Source: Haloglomus salinum
GTDB taxonomy: Archaea; Halobacteriota; Halobacteria; Halobacteriales; Haloarculaceae
Assembly: GCF_024298825.1 (NCBI RefSeq)
Contig: NZ_CP101153.1
Coordinates: forward strand, 372,001-436,000
Length of the DNA stretch: 64,000 nt
Direction: 5' to 3'
Shown here: piece by piece, positions 54,839 to 62,798 of the stretch
Layout: every line of letters starts with the position of its first letter
How positions within the stretch are numbered: position 1 is the stretch's first letter
Notes under the pieces: generated by a model
What the model was told of the DNA's origin: nothing
The model's input: only the letters and a program-made list of their open reading frames with translations
Database searches by the model: none
Made by a program: the position numbers and the translations under genes

Positions 54839-56521
54839 TCACCCTAGCAGCGCCTCGTGGACCGCATCCAGAATCCGCCGGGTGCCCGCCCCGTCGACGA
54901 ACTCCCTGGCGCGCTCGGCCAGTTCCCGCCGGCGCTCGCGGTCCGCAGCGAGGTCGTCGATGGCCGTCCGCAGGCCCCCGGCCGACATCCCACGGCCGTC
55001 GCCGAGGTAGCTGACGACGCCGCGCTCGCCGAGTGCAGCCATCCGCTCGTGTTCGCGGTCGTTCTGTGCCAGGACGAGCGTCGGCGTCCCGGTCGCCGCA
55101 AGTTCGTACGCCGTCCGCCCGCCCGAGCAGACCGCGAAGTCGGCCCACTCCATCACCGCACCCATCTCCGGGTCCGTGACGGCGGTCACGTTCGGCGCCC
55201 CGGCCAGCGCCGCGTCCAGGTCGGAGTCATCGAAATCCGGCCCGCGGACGAGCCGGTACTCGCGGCCGTCACCAGCCACCGCCTCGACGGCGAGCGCCGA
55301 CAGCCCCGCGGGGTCGCTCCCGCCGAACGTCAGCAGGCCGTGCTCGGCCGTCTCTGGCACTTCGAGCGGACGGTCGCGGAACTCCTCTCGCAGGACGAAG
55401 TACTCCGCGCCCGCGAGATGGTTGTCGCCCCCCTCGACGAGCTCGGGCTCGTACAGCGCGTTCACGACGAGGTCGGCGGACTCGGGACCGCCCGCGAGGT
55501 CCTCCAGGTTGACGACCGCCGCCGCGGTCCGGTGGAGCTGGCGCACCCGCTCGGGGTCCGTGTCCAGCACGTCCAGGAACACGAGGGCCGGGTCCATCGC
55601 TGTGACGGGCGCGAGCGGGTCGCGCTCGTCCGGGTCGACCACCTGCACCTCGCGCCCGGCGTCCCGGATGGCGGCGATACCCGCGGGGTAGTCGGCCCGA
55701 CAGACGAAGGTCGGCGCCGCGCGGAGCGTCCGCTCCAGCTCCGCGGCGAGCGTGAGACACCGCGAGACGTGTCCCAGCCCCCGGTTCCCGCCCCCGTCGA
55801 CGCGGAAGACGACGCGGGGCCCCTGCGAGAGCCGCTCGGCCAGCCACAGGTCCACCACGCCGTCGATAGCCAGCGAGGAGAGTCGGTCGGTGACGACGTA
55901 GCCCGGCGTCTCGCCGACCCGGGTCCCCCGTTCGAGCAGTGCCGTCGACGTGACGTTTATCGAACCCGTCTCCCGGTAGAACGGTTCGAGGTCGGCCCGG
56001 AGCGCACGCTCGTCGAAACGCGGTTCGAGCCGGCCGCCGTCCTCCGTGTCCCCGTTCGTCCCCGAAGTCCCCTCCTGCGCTCGCCAGAAGAACCGCCGCT
56101 CCTCGGCGACGCTGATGACCGCCTCGTGGCCGCCCCGGAACCGCTCGATGGCCAACTCCACGTCCGCGACTCGTCGGAACGGGACGTTCGGCTGGAGGAC
56201 GACGATGGGCGTCGCCGCGGTCACGGGTCGCTCCCCGCGCACCTGCTCGACGGCGTGTGCGACGACCTCGTACAGGAGCGCGTCGGTGGCCAGTCGCTCG
56301 GGTCGGAGGAACGGGGCCCGGGCGCCGTGCTCACGCGCGAGTTCGGCCAGCGCCTCGTCCTCCGTCGTGACGAGCACCTCCTCGATGCCCGGGCACGAGA
56401 GTCCCGTCTCGACCGTGTGTGCGAGGACCGGCTTCCCGGCGAGCTGCTTGAAATGCTTCTTCGGCAGGCCGGGCGAGGTCCCGCGCGCGGGGACGATGCA
56501 GAGTGGGTCGGTCGGGTCCAT
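54839..56521 (-). CDS. Fusion of CMP-sugar synthetase (NeuA/PseF-like) and PseG-like hydrolase
   Basis: 560 residues. Residues 1-235 are a cytidylyltransferase of the NeuA type (IVPARGTSPGLPKKHFKQLA, then TPIVVLQPNVPFRR), which joins CMP to a nonulosonic acid. Residues 240-560 are a PseG/SpsG-like GT-B hydrolase (FRVDGGGNRGLGHVSRCLTL, TFGGSDPAGLSAL, CSGGRTAYELAATGTPTLV), which removes UDP from the sugar precursor. These are usually two enzymes; here they are one chain covering an early and a late step. It is the last gene of the minus-strand glycan array, 15 bases beyond NeuB. Confidence 0.88.
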   Translation of the reverse strand: MDPTDPLCIVPARGTSPGLPKKHFKQLAGKPVLAHTVETGLSCPGIEEVLVTTEDEALAELAREHGARAPFLRPERLATDALLYEVVAHAVEQVRGERPVTAATPIVVLQPNVPFRRVADVELAIERFRGGHEAVISVAEERRFFWRAQEGTSGTNGDTEDGGRLEPRFDERALRADLEPFYRETGSINVTSTALLERGTRVGETPGYVVTDRLSSLAIDGVVDLWLAERLSQGPRVVFRVDGGGNRGLGHVSRCLTLAAELERTLRAAPTFVCRADYPAGIAAIRDAGREVQVVDPDERDPLAPVTAMDPALVFLDVLDTDPERVRQLHRTAAAVVNLEDLAGGPESADLVVNALYEPELVEGGDNHLAGAEYFVLREEFRDRPLEVPETAEHGLLTFGGSDPAGLSALAVEAVAGDGREYRLVRGPDFDDSDLDAALAGAPNVTAVTDPEMGAVMEWADFAVCSGGRTAYELAATGTPTLVLAQNDREHERMAALGERGVVSYLGDGRGMSAGGLRTAIDDLAADRERRRELAERAREFVDGAGTRRILDAVHEALLG

Positions 56522-56535
56522 GGCGTGCTCCGTCG

Positions 56536-57603
56536 CTAGCTCTCCCGCTCGATGTCCTCGGCCGTCAGGACGGTGTCGCCGGGCAGGTCCCGGGTCGCGC
56601 GCCACACCTCCTCGTCGACCTCGAACAGCAGTTCCGGAGCGAGACCGGTCCCCGGCCGCTTGACCGCGAGGTCCGCCCGCCGGATTCGCTCGCCGGCCTC
56701 GATGGACCGGGCGGTGACGAGCGAGCGCCGGGCCAGCCGCATCCCGTCGGCCTCCACCTCGGTCGGCCCCTGCTCGGCCCGCCCCATCGCCGCGTGCACC
56801 TCGCGGGTGCGGTCGACGATCTCGCCCATCACCTCGGTGTCGGCGGAGAGCCGATGGTCCGGGCTCTTCTCCAGCGACGTGTCGTAGGTGAAGTGCTTCT
56901 CGATGACGGCGGCCCCCATCGCGGCCGCCGCGACCGGCACCGTCGTCCCGATGGTGTGGTCCGAGAGGCCGACGGGATAGTCGAACTCGGCCATCAGCGT
57001 CGACAGCATCCGCAGGTTCGCGTCCTCGATATCGGTCGGGTACTTCGTGATGCAGTGGAGCAACACGATATCCTCGTTCCCGGCGTCCTCGATGACGCCG
57101 ACGGCCGCGCGAACCTCCGCCAGCGTCGCCATCCCTGTCGAGAGGATGACCGGCTCGCCCCGTGAGGCCACGTCCCGGAGGAGCGGATGGTGGGTGAGGT
57201 CCCCCGACGCCACCTTGTACGCGGGCACGTCGAGGTCGTCGAGCAGGTCGACGGCCGCGTGGTCGAACGGGGTCGAGAGGTACGTGATGTCCTGCTGGCG
57301 GGCGTGGGCCGCCATCGCCTCGTAGTCCGAGCGCTCGAGGACATCGAGTTCCGCGAATTTCTCGTACTGTGTGCCCTCGCCCCAGTACTTCGGGGCGTCG
57401 CGCGTGACGAGGGTGTCGGCGGAGTAGTTCTGGAACTTGACGGCGTCGGCGCCGCTCTCGACGGCCGCGTCGACGAGCCGCTTCGCCTTCGCCAGCTCAC
57501 CGTCGTGGTTGGCGCCGGCCTCGGCGATGACGTAGGCCGGCTCGCCCGGACCGACCGCTCTGTCCCCGATGTGGACCGGCTCGATGTCGCGTTCGTCCGG
57601 CAT
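56536..57603 (-). CDS. neuB: Nonulosonic acid synthase (NeuB/LegI/PseI-type)
   Basis: 355 residues. Condenses phosphoenolpyruvate with a six-carbon amino sugar to a nine-carbon sialic-like acid. TIM-barrel motifs are AYVIAEAGANHDGELAKAKR, DAVKFQNYSADTLV, ITYLSTPFDHAAVDLLDDL and CITKYPTD. The C-terminal 60 residues are the SAF/antifreeze-like lid (RRSLVTARSIEAGERI). The N-terminal domain lacks nothing essential. Product could be legionaminic or pseudaminic acid; the sequence alone does not decide. It follows the oxygenase gene by 34 bases. Confidence 0.93.
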   Translation of the reverse strand: MPDERDIEPVHIGDRAVGPGEPAYVIAEAGANHDGELAKAKRLVDAAVESGADAVKFQNYSADTLVTRDAPKYWGEGTQYEKFAELDVLERSDYEAMAAHARQQDITYLSTPFDHAAVDLLDDLDVPAYKVASGDLTHHPLLRDVASRGEPVILSTGMATLAEVRAAVGVIEDAGNEDIVLLHCITKYPTDIEDANLRMLSTLMAEFDYPVGLSDHTIGTTVPVAAAAMGAAVIEKHFTYDTSLEKSPDHRLSADTEVMGEIVDRTREVHAAMGRAEQGPTEVEADGMRLARRSLVTARSIEAGERIRRADLAVKRPGTGLAPELLFEVDEEVWRATRDLPGDTVLTAEDIERES

Positions 57604-57637: not shown

Positions 57638-58393
57638 TCAGTGGTGGTCGGCGCCCGCCGGCGTGTGCGAGGTGGTCGCGAGCATGCGCTCGAAGCCCGG
57701 CTCCTGCGGGGTCCCGCGGTGGAGCCCGGCCTGGTTCGCGACGATGAGCGTTCCCTTCGGGGCCGTGCAGACGAGCGCGTCGTCGTCGTCGTAGAAGACG
57801 CCGTCCGTCGGTGGGTCGCCGCGGACACGGTTGAGGAGCTGTGTGGCCTTCCGCCGCAGGACGGAGGGGTCGTGACTCCCCGGGATGTACTGGAACGGGC
57901 CGTAGCGCTCGTCGGGCACGTCGGTGAGGTAGACGAACGCCTTGAACTTGCCCGCGTAGGTGTCGGCGTGGAAGTCACGGGTCCCCGTGACGCCGCGGTT
58001 GACGTAGACGTTGAGGTTGTCCGGGGTGTAGCGTGTCCCAGCCGCATCGTCGACGATTCCGGCGACGAAGCGGTCGCGCTTGAGCTGTGCCAGCGCCGGA
58101 ATCGCGAGGTCCATGTTGAACACGTCGAGCATCCCGTCGTCGGTCTCGCCGGTCCGCTCTCTGACGACCGGCTCGCCGCGCGTCGAGAGCGAACCGTAGT
58201 CGTCGTCCGGACCGGCGCGCGGGAGGTCGTCGAGCCGCGTCTCGACGCGCTCACGGATTTCGTCACAGAGTGACGGCGCGAGGAAGTCCTCCACCACGAC
58301 GACACCATCGGCAGCCAGCGTATCCGCGTACGTCCCGGCATCCGCGTCGAGGTCTGGCACCCGGTCGTTCTCGGCGTCGGGGACCGTAGCCAT
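57638..58393 (-). CDS. Phytanoyl-CoA dioxygenase-like Fe(II)/2-oxoglutarate oxygenase
   Basis: 251 residues. Metal ligands are probably His and Asp in DFHADTYAGKFKAFVYLTD and a distal His in GLHRGTPQ. The core (FQYIPGSHDPSVL) matches the PhyH family. It likely hydroxylates a small molecule, here perhaps the nonulosonic acid or an attached lipid. The array position between the synthase and the glycosyltransferase supports a sugar-tailoring role. The ATG is chosen at MATVPDAE; upstream residues are unlikely. Confidence 0.83.
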   Translation of the reverse strand: MATVPDAENDRVPDLDADAGTYADTLAADGVVVVEDFLAPSLCDEIRERVETRLDDLPRAGPDDDYGSLSTRGEPVVRERTGETDDGMLDVFNMDLAIPALAQLKRDRFVAGIVDDAAGTRYTPDNLNVYVNRGVTGTRDFHADTYAGKFKAFVYLTDVPDERYGPFQYIPGSHDPSVLRRKATQLLNRVRGDPPTDGVFYDDDDALVCTAPKGTLIVANQAGLHRGTPQEPGFERMLATTSHTPAGADHH

Positions 58394-58443
58394 GCGACGA
58401 TGCAGTCGGCTGGCGTGTAAGTCTCTTCCCGTTTCCGCGACGC

Positions 58444-60003
58444 TCACCGGAGCGTTCCCTCGGTTGCCAGCCGGTCGAGCGTCCGGACTGCGTGACGGGT
58501 GGCGTCTGGCCGGAAGTACGCGTCCGGGTCGAACGCCGTGGCGGGGGCATCGGTGTCCACGGCATCGCCGTCACCACCGGTCGCGATGGCCTCGGCGACG
58601 GCAGCGGCGTCCGGGAGTACCTCGGCGGCCCCGGCCGCGACGAGCCGGTCCATGTACGCGACGCCGGGCAGGTCGACCAGCAGCGTCTCGCACCCGAACG
58701 CCAGCCCCTCGAACAGCGCCGTCGAGTAGACGCCGACCTGCGCCCGGCTCGTGGCGAACAGCTCGTACAGGTCGACCGAGGGGTCCGCGATGACCCGGAG
58801 CCGCCCCGCGTCGTGCGCATCGACCAGCCACGGCGTCCGGTCGCGCCAGCGGTCGTGCTCCGAGGGGTGGAGCTTGTAGACGAGGGCCGGCACGTCCGGG
58901 TGGCTCTCCAGCCGGTCGGCCACCTCGCACGCGACCCGTGACAGCCGGACGCCGGCGGTCCCCTGTGAGATGAACGTCACTCGGTCCTCCGTCGGGGCCT
59001 CGGCGTACCGTTCGCGGCCGCGTTCGAGTCCCGGATAGCCGACCGGCAGGACACGCTCCGCGGGCAGGGGGAGCGGACAGAGGTCGGCCCAGCGCTCCCC
59101 CCACGAGCAGAGGTAGTCCGGGAAGACGCTCGGCGACCCCGTCGAGCCCGGGGCGTCGCTGTCGGGGTACGCGTACCCGAGGTGGTACGGACTCATCACG
59201 CCGTGCTGGAGTTCGGCGACCGGGATGCCCTCCTCCCGACAGACCTCGACGAACGTCGGCTTCGTGTACCAGACGACCACGACAGCGAGGTCGGGGTCGA
59301 CACGCCGGCAGAGCGCGCGGAACGCGGGTCGTTCCAGCCGTCGTCGGGCGAGACGCCGCCCGACCATCGCCACGAGGTCCGGTGCGGTGCCGACGGCCGA
59401 ATGGAGGCGTGCCTCGGCGGTACGCAGCGTCGTCCGCTCGCTCGCCGGGAGTTCGTCGGCCGGGTCGCCCAGGTGGTCCGCCAGCCCCGCCCCGTAGAGG
59501 ACCGGGTCGAGATACCGGACACCGTCCGTCTGCGCCGGCGTCAGGTGCTCGCCCTCATGTGGGGCCTCGACGTAGGTCCACGAGCGCTCGCCACCGCTTT
59601 CGCTTCCGCCTCCATCGAACGCGTCCAGCAGCGGGTCGCAGTAGCAGTCGTGCCACACCCCCTCCCGTTCCGTCCGCCGTTCGTGACCCCACACGAGCAG
59701 GTCCGTGTCGGATGCCAGCCACGGGTTCCGTGACGGTCGGAGCCCCCGGAGGACCCGCCTGGCACGGCCGGCCGTGGTCAGTCCACCGGAGCCGTGCGCG
59801 GTGTCGGTCGCGCCGGTCAGTTCGAGGAGTCGCTGCTGGACATCGAACCGCACGTGGGTCCAGTAGTGACAGCCGTCGGCCGTCCGCGAGAGCAGGTCGA
59901 GGTCCGACTCGACGGCGAGCAGCGCGTCGGTGACGGCCGCGAGCGTCGGGCTGTCGGCGTCCGGTTCCACGCCGCCCCCACCGCTCGCACCGTCCCCGCT
60001 CAT
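58444..60003 (-). CDS. GT-B glycosyltransferase (possible sialyltransferase-like)
   Basis: 519 residues. The second half has a GT-B donor domain: CLVVVWYTKP-like segment, VAELQHGVMSPYHLGYAY, ALVYKLHPSEHDRW, and VGVYSTALFEGLAFGCETLL. The KLHPSE and YST-xx-EG patterns occur in capsule and polysialic-type transferases that use CMP-sugars, which suits the CMP-sugar synthetase in this array. The first 170 residues are a variable acceptor domain. The acceptor is unknown. Overlaps the next gene upstream by 4 bases. Confidence 0.8.
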   Translation of the reverse strand: MSGDGASGGGGVEPDADSPTLAAVTDALLAVESDLDLLSRTADGCHYWTHVRFDVQQRLLELTGATDTAHGSGGLTTAGRARRVLRGLRPSRNPWLASDTDLLVWGHERRTEREGVWHDCYCDPLLDAFDGGGSESGGERSWTYVEAPHEGEHLTPAQTDGVRYLDPVLYGAGLADHLGDPADELPASERTTLRTAEARLHSAVGTAPDLVAMVGRRLARRRLERPAFRALCRRVDPDLAVVVVWYTKPTFVEVCREEGIPVAELQHGVMSPYHLGYAYPDSDAPGSTGSPSVFPDYLCSWGERWADLCPLPLPAERVLPVGYPGLERGRERYAEAPTEDRVTFISQGTAGVRLSRVACEVADRLESHPDVPALVYKLHPSEHDRWRDRTPWLVDAHDAGRLRVIADPSVDLYELFATSRAQVGVYSTALFEGLAFGCETLLVDLPGVAYMDRLVAAGAAEVLPDAAAVAEAIATGGDGDAVDTDAPATAFDPDAYFRPDATRHAVRTLDRLATEGTLR

Positions 60004-61028
60004 GGCCCCGCGACCGCCTGCTTCGCACGCCACGCGAACCGGTACGGGCGCCGGCCGAGCGCCGCGAGGCCGAGCATCGCGGCGTGTGTCGGTTCGGGGG
60101 CGAGCCGCACCGTCCGGGCGAACCGGCGGACGGCCTCGCGGCGGTCGCCCCGCTCGAGCGCGGCGAGCCCCCGTTGCTTCGCGAGCATCGCCTCGAACTC
60201 CCGGCGGGCCTCGGGATTCGCCTCGAGGTCGCCCAGGTACTTCTCCCGCAGTCGCTCGCGGATGGCGACCTCGTAGGAGGGGTCGCCGAAGGCGGCGTCG
60301 CCGGAGACGTTGTCGTCGGCGTAGCGGCGCTCGACGAGCGGCTCTGGGACGTACGCCCACCGCCAGCGCTTGCAGAGCCGGACCGTGAGGTCCCAGTCGA
60401 CACCGCGCGGGAACGATTCGTTGTAGCCCCCCACCGCGTGCAGGCAGTCCCGGCGGACGAGATGGCCCGAGTGGGGCCGCACGTCGAACCGGACCAGCAC
60501 GTCGGGCCACAGGTCGCCCGCCGCGCCGGTGTCCACGCGGCGAACGACCTCGCCGCCGGCATCACGGACCACGCCGCCGCAGTAGACGCCGCAGTAGTCC
60601 GCCGAGTCGCAGTCCGTGCGTTCGCGGAGGCGGGCGAGCGCATCGAGCTGTCGCTTCACCTTCCGGGACCGCCAGCGGTCGTCGTCGTCGAGCTGACAGA
60701 CGTAGGCGCCGCGTGCTGCCTCGATGCCCCGATTGCGCGTGTGGCTGATGCCGCGGTTCCGGTCGTTGTGCAGCGCCCGGACGTTCGCGTGGGCGTCGGC
60801 GTACGCCTCGACGACGCGCCGGGTGTCGTCGGTGGAGCCGTCGTTCACCACGACCACCTCCAGGCGGTCGTGGGTCTGCTCGAGGGCGCTCTCGATGGCC
60901 CCGCCGACGCGGTCGGCCCGCTCGTAGGTCGGGACGACGACGGAGACGAGCGCGTCGCGCGGGCGCTCGGGTGGCGCCGCGACGGCCGTCCCGGCTGTCC
61001 CTGCCGCCTCGGGGTCGGGACCGGTCAC
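60000..61028 (-). CDS. Family 2 glycosyltransferase
   Basis: 342 residues. The GT-A core begins VSVVVPTYERADRVGGAIES; nucleotide-sugar contacts are in VVVNDGSTDDTRRVV; the metal DxD motif is CQLDDDDRWR; and the acceptor loop follows in GGYNESFPRGVDWDL. A C-terminal helical region of 60 residues (FEAMLAKQRGLAALERGDRR) is added. A GTG is the most likely start (VTGPDPEAAG), as no ATG lies before the divergent SDR promoter. It probably extends the surface glycan. Confidence 0.85.
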   Translation of the reverse strand: MTGPDPEAAGTAGTAVAAPPERPRDALVSVVVPTYERADRVGGAIESALEQTHDRLEVVVVNDGSTDDTRRVVEAYADAHANVRALHNDRNRGISHTRNRGIEAARGAYVCQLDDDDRWRSRKVKRQLDALARLRERTDCDSADYCGVYCGGVVRDAGGEVVRRVDTGAAGDLWPDVLVRFDVRPHSGHLVRRDCLHAVGGYNESFPRGVDWDLTVRLCKRWRWAYVPEPLVERRYADDNVSGDAAFGDPSYEVAIRERLREKYLGDLEANPEARREFEAMLAKQRGLAALERGDRREAVRRFARTVRLAPEPTHAAMLGLAALGRRPYRFAWRAKQAVAGP

Positions 61029-61114: not shown

Positions 61115-61179
61115 CCGGATGCGGTTCCCGGTGATTCCGGCCTCCCGGCTTTATGCTCCCGCCGGGAGAACCCACGGCC

Positions 61180-61989
61180 ATGACACTGTTCGACCTGACG
61201 GACGAGGTCGTCGTGGTGGTCGGGGGCGCCGGGCGTATCGGTCCCGCCGTCTGCGGGGCGCTGGCCGACCACGGCGCCGAGGTCGTGGTCGCCGACGTGG
61301 ACCGCGACGCCGGCCGGCGCGTGGCCGACGACATCGACGGCACCTACCACCACGTGGACGTGACCGACGAGACCTCTATCCGCAAACTCTACGACGCAGT
61401 CATCGACGGCTTCGACCGCATCGACGCCGCCGTCCATGCCGCCTACCCGCGGGACGCGGCCTACGGCGACGCCTTCCTCGCCCGCGGCGAGAGCGACTGG
61501 CGCGAGCAGGTCGACGCCCAGCTCACCGCGACCGCGACCCTCTCCCGCGAGGCCATCCGCCGGATGCACCCCGACGGTGCCGGGACCGCGGGGCAGTCCG
61601 ACCCGGACGACGCCGTCCGCGACGGCGGCGCAGTCGTCAACTTCGGCTCCACCTACGGGATGGTGGCGCCCGACTTCCGCGTCTACGAGGAGGCGAACAT
61701 GCCGCCGAGCCCGGCGCACTACTCGGCCTCGAAGGGCGGTATCCTCAACCTCACGCGCTATCTCGCCTGCGAGTTCGCCCCCGAGGTCCGGGTCAACGCC
61801 GTCTCACCGGGCGGCGTCTTCGACGAACAGGACCCGGAGTTCGTGGCCGCGTACGAGGACCGCACGCCGATGGACCGGATGGCCGACCCCGATGACATCG
61901 CGGGGGCGGTGGTCTACCTCGTCTCCGATGCGGCCTCGTACGTCACGGGTGAGAACATCGCGGTCGATGGGGGGTGGACCGCACAATGA
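61180..61989 (+). CDS. SDR oxidoreductase, PtmA-like
   Basis: 269 residues. Rossmann motif VVGGAGRIGPAV (GGxGxIG type); catalytic Ser in GSTYGMVAP, Tyr181 and Lys185 in YSASKGGILNLTRYL. The segments FDEQDPEFVAAYEDRTPM and VDGGWTAQ resemble PtmA of the Campylobacter legionaminic acid pathway, as I recall it. It may reduce or epimerise the sugar precursor. TATA-like TTTATGC lies about 30 bases upstream. It overlaps the next gene by 4 bases (ATGA). Confidence 0.85.
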   Translation: MTLFDLTDEVVVVVGGAGRIGPAVCGALADHGAEVVVADVDRDAGRRVADDIDGTYHHVDVTDETSIRKLYDAVIDGFDRIDAAVHAAYPRDAAYGDAFLARGESDWREQVDAQLTATATLSREAIRRMHPDGAGTAGQSDPDDAVRDGGAVVNFGSTYGMVAPDFRVYEEANMPPSPAHYSASKGGILNLTRYLACEFAPEVRVNAVSPGGVFDEQDPEFVAAYEDRTPMDRMADPDDIAGAVVYLVSDAASYVTGENIAVDGGWTAQ

Positions 61990-62798
61990 CAGCCGACGAA
62001 CCCGCACCGACGCCCGACGACGTCCCCGCCCTCGGCCTCGGCACCTGGAAGCTCACCGGCGACACCGCCACGGAGGTCGTCGCCGACGCCCTGGAGACGG
62101 GCTACCGCCACATCGACACCGCACAGCTCTACGACAACGAACTCGAGGTCGGGCGTGGCATCCGCCGGGTCGACCCCGACGAGGACGTGTTCCTCGCGAC
62201 GAAGGTCGCCCCCGAGAACTGCGCGTACGAGGACTGCGTCTCCTCGGTGCGGGCCTCGAAGGACCGCCTCGGCCGGACGCCGGACCTCGTCTACGTCCAC
62301 TGGCCCCGCGCCGCGTACGACGCCGAGGACACGACGCGTGCGCTGGACGACCTCGTCGACGAGGGCACCGCCCGCGCCGTCGGCGTCTCGAACTTCACGG
62401 TCGACCTGCTCGACGAGTTCCTCACTCACGCCGACCACCGGCCGGTCGCCCATCAGTTCGAGTGCCACCCCCTGCTCCCACAGGACGACCTCGTCGAGGC
62501 GTGCCACGAGCGTGACGTGCTTCCCGTGGCGTACTCGCCGGTCGCGCGCGGCAAGGCGCTGGAGCACCCGGACGTGCAGGCGGTGGCCGACGAGGTCGAC
62601 GCCACGCCCGGCCAGGTCTGTCTCGCGTGGCTCCGCGCGCGCAACGTCGCCGCCATCCCGAAGACCACCGGCGGCCACCTCGCGGAGAACTTCGACTCGC
62701 AGTCGGTGACGCTCACGGACGACCAGGTCGCGCGCATCTCGGCCATCGAGGACCGGCACCGCTGCGTGAACCCGCCGAGTGCGCCGTGGGACCGGTGA
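61986..62798 (+). CDS. Aldo/keto reductase
   Basis: 270 residues. Barrel with the family tetrad Asp and Tyr in HIDTAQLYDNE, Lys in FLATKVAP and His in VYVHWPRA. The NADPH site is in IPKTTGGHLAENF. It could reduce a sugar carbonyl in the same pathway as the SDR, with which it is translationally coupled. A general detoxifying reductase is the alternative. Confidence 0.88.
   Translation: MTADEPAPTPDDVPALGLGTWKLTGDTATEVVADALETGYRHIDTAQLYDNELEVGRGIRRVDPDEDVFLATKVAPENCAYEDCVSSVRASKDRLGRTPDLVYVHWPRAAYDAEDTTRALDDLVDEGTARAVGVSNFTVDLLDEFLTHADHRPVAHQFECHPLLPQDDLVEACHERDVLPVAYSPVARGKALEHPDVQAVADEVDATPGQVCLAWLRARNVAAIPKTTGGHLAENFDSQSVTLTDDQVARISAIEDRHRCVNPPSAPWDR

Follow-up and report, generated by a model that had tools for sequence, protein, structure and literature searches.

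A natural fusion of NeuA/PseF-type and PseG-like domains encoded beside neuB in Haloglomus salinum

Introduction

In the formation of nonulosonic acids, which are sialic-acid-like sugars, PseG-type enzymes free a hexose from a UDP-sugar, NeuB condenses the hexose with phosphoenolpyruvate (PEP), and NeuA/PseF converts the product to the CMP-sugar. The window considered here, a stretch of 64,000 nucleotides of Haloglomus salinum DNA (contig NZ_CP101153.1, positions 372,001 to 436,000), contains a gene whose product resembles the first and the third of these enzymes in one polypeptide. Is this protein real, how widely is it distributed, and what might it make in a haloarchaeon? According to earlier surveys, as cited in PMC6137143, the archaea with a complete nonulosonate pathway are very few.

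The fusion gene and its domains

Located on the minus strand at 54839-56521, the gene runs from ATG to stop as one open frame of 560 codons for amino acids, with no N in the sequence. The original prediction assigned residues 1-235 of a single chain to a NeuA/PseF-like part and residues 240-560 to a PseG-like part. Both the single chain and the borders, to within a few residues, have been borne out. Searches with NCBIfam profiles gave a PseF match (TIGR03584) over residues 7-230 with an E-value of 1.1e-22 and 80.8 bits, and a PseG match (TIGR03590) over residues 236-487 with 1.6e-31 and 110 bits; the PseG-like domain continues to residue 559. The N-half (residues 7-230, 55832-56503, minus strand) was defined by its PseF/NeuA matches and by comparison with 30 other archaeal N-halves, and the C-half (residues 236-560, 54842-55816, minus strand) by the TIGR03590 match, a profile alignment with the structure 3HBM and conservation. 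Both profile matches are significant, and that of the N-half spans the whole domain, but they fall under the curated equivalog cut-offs of 205.7 bits for TIGR03584 and 153.6 bits for TIGR03590. The C-half is PseG-like and, at 110 bits, is not assignable as a PseG equivalog.

Other comparisons gave the same two domains. The PDB sequences matching the first part are CMP-sialate and CMP-Kdo synthetases. When a profile was built from the 13 fused proteins described below, NeuA structures matched positions 2-226 (best E-value 5e-42) and Campylobacter jejuni PseG (3HBM) matched positions 225-458; a profile of the C-half matched 3HBM with 1.5e-27. The AlphaFold model of the fusion (pLDDT 78.9), a kind of check that the original prediction had proposed, shows two domains joined at about residue 234, with the last helix of the NeuA domain (222-233) running directly into the first strand of the GT-B domain (236-240) without a linker. 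Foldseek with this model retrieved CMP-nonulosonate synthetases (E 1e-13; PpNeuA, VcNeuA and NmCSS) as well as GT-B enzymes. The C-half has the GT-B fold and keeps the GxGH (248-251), GGxD (400-403) and TxYE (470-473) motifs, which place it in the PseG-like superfamily.

The probability that sequencing or assembly has joined two genes is negligible, since the frame has no break and the identical architecture is present in independent genomes, namely those of H. halophilum, a third Haloglomus and 10 further organisms. An internal start that would separate the halves is likewise not indicated by the sequence: no in-frame ATG, GTG or TTG occurs between codons 224 and 291, and the nearest candidates, GTG codons at 222/223, are within the last helix of the synthetase and lack a purine-rich leader. 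It is confirmed that the Haloglomus salinum gene is a genuine fusion of two normally separate enzymes.

Distribution and origin of the fusion

Full-length fused relatives, with the domains in the same order, were found in the three Haloglomus genomes and in 10 more from the phylum, of which five belong to other orders than Haloglomus. The original prediction had treated such a fusion as uncommon; since 13 or more genomes in the phylum carry it, its rarity was overstated, and a one-off event is ruled out by this recurrence. Identity over the full length ranges from 29 to 95% across the 13 genomes. It is 95% with H. halophilum and 85% with the third Haloglomus, and falls to about 29-32% with four further genera of haloarchaea in the family and with a single genome from a second family within the order; the five relatives outside the order show the same 29-32%. 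The relatives also have NeuA-like genes and PseG-like genes that stand alone.

In a tree with solo PseG-like proteins, the fused C-halves form one clade (support 96/92). In the N-half tree the fused proteins other than those of Haloglomus also form one clade, with Haloglomus outside it on a long branch (2.2), but a single clade of all fused N-halves is not rejected (AU p 0.076). One ancient fusion followed by divergence would be the simplest reading of these trees. Because the Haloglomus N-half stands apart in its tree, a second fusion event or a domain replacement in this genus is possible.

The operons of certain bacteria suggest by analogy how the fusion arose, since pseF precedes pseG in them as the corresponding domains do here. 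In a Mesorhizobium plasmid record (L048) the order is pseC-pseF-pseG-pseH-pseI. In Acinetobacter (L047, 3995-5788) pseF and pseG are in the same frame and just the stop codon and one further codon intervene, so that loss of the stop would yield a protein of this kind; this arrangement is a possible intermediate toward fusion. The archaeal gene probably originated in this way, when a pseF next to pseG lost its stop codon. The bacterial distribution was thinly sampled: of the long tblastn matches on plasmids two were examined (H2/L048 and H3/L047), and each proved to be two adjacent genes and not a fusion. There was no full-length match on viral contigs. The parts of the protein are known, and no description of their combination was found in the literature searched; an earlier description elsewhere is possible.

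The neuB partner and the gene neighborhood

Upstream of the fusion, on the same strand at 56536-57603, is a neuB homologue encoding a nonulosonate synthase of 355 amino acids with an SAF domain (TIGR03569, 351 bits; TIGR03586, 290 bits; PF03102, 3e-83). Its score against the Neu model exceeds that against PseI; it ends 14 nucleotides before the start of the fusion, and is the sole NeuB in the genome. The nonulosonic acid context proposed in the original prediction for this haloarchaeal host is thus supported. Linkage to neuB is found in all 13 fusion genomes, each of which has exactly one NeuB: the two genes adjoin or overlap in 12, and in the remaining one (G399) they are about 1 kb apart with one ORF between them. 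neuB lies before the fusion in Haloglomus and after it elsewhere. Haloglomus NeuB lacks short insertions, for example after residue 32, that every NeuB encoded with one of the other fusions has, which fits a separate lineage of the cassette. In the window genome the fusion is the only match to itself, so that neither a further NeuA-like gene nor a further PseG-like one turned up.

The minus-strand run consists, in order, of a family-2 glycosyltransferase, a GT-B-like protein, a PhyH-family protein, neuB and the fusion, and two pairs overlap by 4 nucleotides, given the chosen starts. The glycosyltransferase (60000-60947; PF00535, 1.2e-30; start codon uncertain) overlaps by 4 nucleotides the gene for the GT-B-like protein (58444-60003), which has no Pfam or NCBIfam match and contains the motifs ELQHGV, in the longer form ELQHGV..YH.GY.YP, and YKLHP. 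Homologues of the latter are found near the fusions in L040, L042, L109 and L112, and more divergent ones in L110 and L114. The protein is a candidate CMP-nonulosonate transferase. Its model is of low confidence (pLDDT 67), with UDP-GlcNAc 2-epimerases as first matches, and is too weak for assignment of function from structure. The PhyH-family gene (57638-58447; PF05721, 6e-7; start codon uncertain) encodes an Fe/2-oxoglutarate dioxygenase-like protein; it shares the strand and gene run of the fusion, and a PhyH gene is also beside the fusion of G071 (L042, 4607-5398). Two distantly related fusion clusters thus share a dioxygenase of this type, for which hydroxylation of the nonulosonic acid, or of the glycan that carries it, is a possible role. 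Divergent from the cluster, at 61153-62798 on the plus strand, are overlapping genes for a short-chain dehydrogenase and an aldo/keto reductase; the dehydrogenase has a weak PtmA-like similarity among many SDR matches.

The synthetase half in Haloglomus

The N-halves of the three Haloglomus proteins were compared with those of 30 other archaeal proteins (10 fused, 20 solo). In the active-site region six positions that are identical in 27-30 of the 30 are changed in all three Haloglomus genomes: G15T, K17P, N23H, T112N, Q176A/T (Q176A in the window copy) and D218A. Haloglomus therefore lacks the conserved residues K17, N23, T112, Q176 and D218 of the CTP, metal and sugar sites, and it keeps R13, K22, R73, R175, D220 and D224. 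In the C-half, five less central conserved positions are changed. By alignment, D218 corresponds to the leading Asp in the IDID metal motif of NmCSS (1EYR), and K17 and N23 correspond to K16 and N22 of the same enzyme. The N-half also contains a D/G-rich loop of low confidence at residues 141-178 (about 55988-56101, minus strand), the length of which differs between Haloglomus species; it is 19 amino acids longer in H. halophilum, and absent or much shorter in the other fusions.

Both halves are under purifying selection: among the three Haloglomus genomes the N-half has a dN/dS of 0.18-0.28, and the C-half one of 0.12-0.25. The sequence thus portrays an N-half that is selected for, yet whose CMP-transfer activity is doubtful or changed, because six conserved positions are altered though selection maintains it. 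That residues 1-235 are a functional CMP-sugar synthetase, as had been proposed with these changes overlooked, may not hold, and automated annotation that calls the Haloglomus protein a cytidylyltransferase may mislabel it.

What the cassette may make

It is conceivable, at somewhat less than even chances, that the Haloglomus N-half no longer acts as a CMP-nonulosonate synthetase or has taken on a different substrate, so that it would serve as a structural or regulatory partner or have a new specificity, in a protein that is mainly a hydrolase feeding NeuB. The six substitutions at nearly invariant positions, among them that of the Asp aligned with the IDID motif, argue for this, as do the long branch in the N-half tree and the variable loop. 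However, the N-half is under constraint similar to that on the C-half, the genome has no other NeuA-like match to replace the step, and PpNeuA (9T4Z), a CMP-Kdn synthetase, is also without the Lys and the first Asp.

The origin of the sugar used by NeuB raises a separate question. Profile searches, on which all of these absences rest, detected neither a true PseB/LegB nor NeuC in the haloarchaeal genomes that carry the fusion. Pseudaminic acid synthesis would call for a PseB-type 5-inverting dehydratase, and the best PseB matches in seven haloarchaeal fusion genomes do not exceed 62 bits (cut-off 408). PF02719 dehydratases above 100 bits are missing from 11 of the 13 fusion genomes, G370 and G181 being the only exceptions, and none better than 60 bits is present in the window genome. 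The Neu5Ac pathway would call for NeuC, a separate hydrolysing UDP-GlcNAc 2-epimerase; none passed the cut-off in the 13 genomes, and the window genome gave no match. WecB was unmatched in the window genome and in G071, and a GlcNAc 2-epimerase, for which nothing in the window genome passed the cut-off, has a strong full-length match in G024 only. In the window genome the profile searches therefore turned up no supplier of the NeuB substrate, whether PseB/LegB, NeuC, WecB or a GlcNAc 2-epimerase over the cut-off.

An ordinary pseudaminic or legionaminic acid pathway, with PseB/C/H or LegB/C/H encoded elsewhere and too divergent for the profiles, is rather doubtful. The window genome has many generic sugar epimerases and aminotransferases, and Halorubrum sp. 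PV6 makes legionaminic acid with genes that are partly scattered (PMC6137143). But the best aminotransferase candidates in the window genome fall in other pathways: as judged from their translations, the DegT gene at 2.269 Mb adjoins WbpA/WbpB-like genes and that at 3.795 Mb adjoins RmlA/RmlB-like genes, a context for which both were rejected as PseC. The same absences, from PseB and PF02719 to NeuC, WecB and GlcNAc 2-epimerase, would be accounted for if the C-half were to behave as a hydrolysing 2-epimerase, producing ManNAc or a similar sugar from a pool UDP-HexNAc such as UDP-GlcNAc, so that the fusion and NeuB would suffice for a CMP-sialic-acid-type sugar. Recurrence of the cassette without PseB/C/H neighbors and the preference of NeuB for the Neu model over PseI also favor this complete two-gene pathway, which we nevertheless consider unlikely. 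SpsG of Bacillus subtilis is a relative of PseG. It is needed for legionaminic acid (PMC7439481), which is in keeping with such a role. On the other hand, the sugar could come from an unrelated enzyme, the GT-B-like neighbor being one candidate supplier by the first matches of its low-confidence model, and WecB could provide UDP-ManNAc in some fusion genomes. Moreover, PseG itself is a non-epimerising hydrolase. Direct formation of NeuB's sugar from a common UDP-HexNAc by the C-half is attractive but unproven. The fuller proposal, in which the PseG-like half replaces NeuC in a two-gene pathway without PseB/C/H or LegB/C/H and the CMP-transferase half of Haloglomus is remodelled for a different activated acid, is a speculative one with low odds.

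Proposed mechanism and significance

On balance the protein is probably a natural two-domain enzyme of CMP-nonulosonate synthesis that acts with the adjacent NeuB. The C-half would convert a UDP-amino-sugar to the free sugar and UDP, NeuB would condense this sugar with PEP to form the nonulosonic acid, and the N-half, judged by its ancestry, would join the acid to CTP, giving a CMP-sugar for the neighboring glycosyltransferases and, probably, for surface glycans. Against this reading are the sub-cut-off scores of both halves, the six altered positions in the three Haloglomus genomes, the place of their N-half outside the other fusions, and the failure to find upstream enzymes, PseB/LegB for Pse/Leg or NeuC for Neu, in the haloarchaeal genomes. 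Channeling between the two fused activities, as originally suggested, is not supported as stated: the fused domains join the first and third steps and NeuB catalyzes the second, so there is no direct channeling without NeuB. Fusion of these steps, with neuB alongside, fixes the stoichiometry of the activities. NeuB may sit between the fused domains, and the conserved gene pair leads us to infer a NeuB-bridged complex.

If surveys seek separate enzymes, sialic-acid-like sugars could be commoner in archaea than thought, and made differently, because the conserved cassette consists of two genes, one of them for a fused enzyme, and occurs without recognizable upstream steps. The cassette is also a compact system for reconstitution.

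Comparison with known systems

The N-half shares the fold of PseF/NeuA synthetases (TIGR03584; PDB 1EYR, 6IFD, 9FTB and 9T4Z) over residues 7-230, together with the motifs PARxxSxGxPxK, RP, QPxxP, R175 and ID220xxxD224. It differs from them in being followed by a PseG-like domain, in the six changed positions of Haloglomus, and in scoring under the PseF equivalog cut-off. The C-half shares the GT-B fold, GxGH, GGxD and E473 with PseG, the UDP-2,4-diacetamido-2,4,6-trideoxy-beta-L-altropyranose hydrolase (TIGR03590; PDB 3HBM/3HBN), but here it is the C-terminal domain of a fusion and below the cut-off, and since the fusion genomes have no recognizable PseB, its substrate probably differs from that of PseG. 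SpsG of B. subtilis is, with PseG, among the closest known systems.

The Mesorhizobium (L048) and Acinetobacter (L047) operons have the same F-then-G order, adjacent and, in L047, in frame; there, however, the genes are separate and PseC and PseH are encoded in the same operon. A Parabacteroides plasmid record (NZ_OY725823.1) includes a protein with a PseG domain that bears a bifunctional annotation, but the record lists pseF as a gene of its own, and this is not the NeuA-PseG combination. Among haloarchaea, nonulosonate synthesis is represented by Halorubrum sp. PV6, in which NeuB- and NeuA-type enzyme activities were shown (PMC6137143). In that organism LegB and LegC are present, and LegF and the NeuC-type LegG are separate proteins, whereas in Haloglomus salinum a NeuA/PseF-type domain and a PseG-like domain are joined in one chain.
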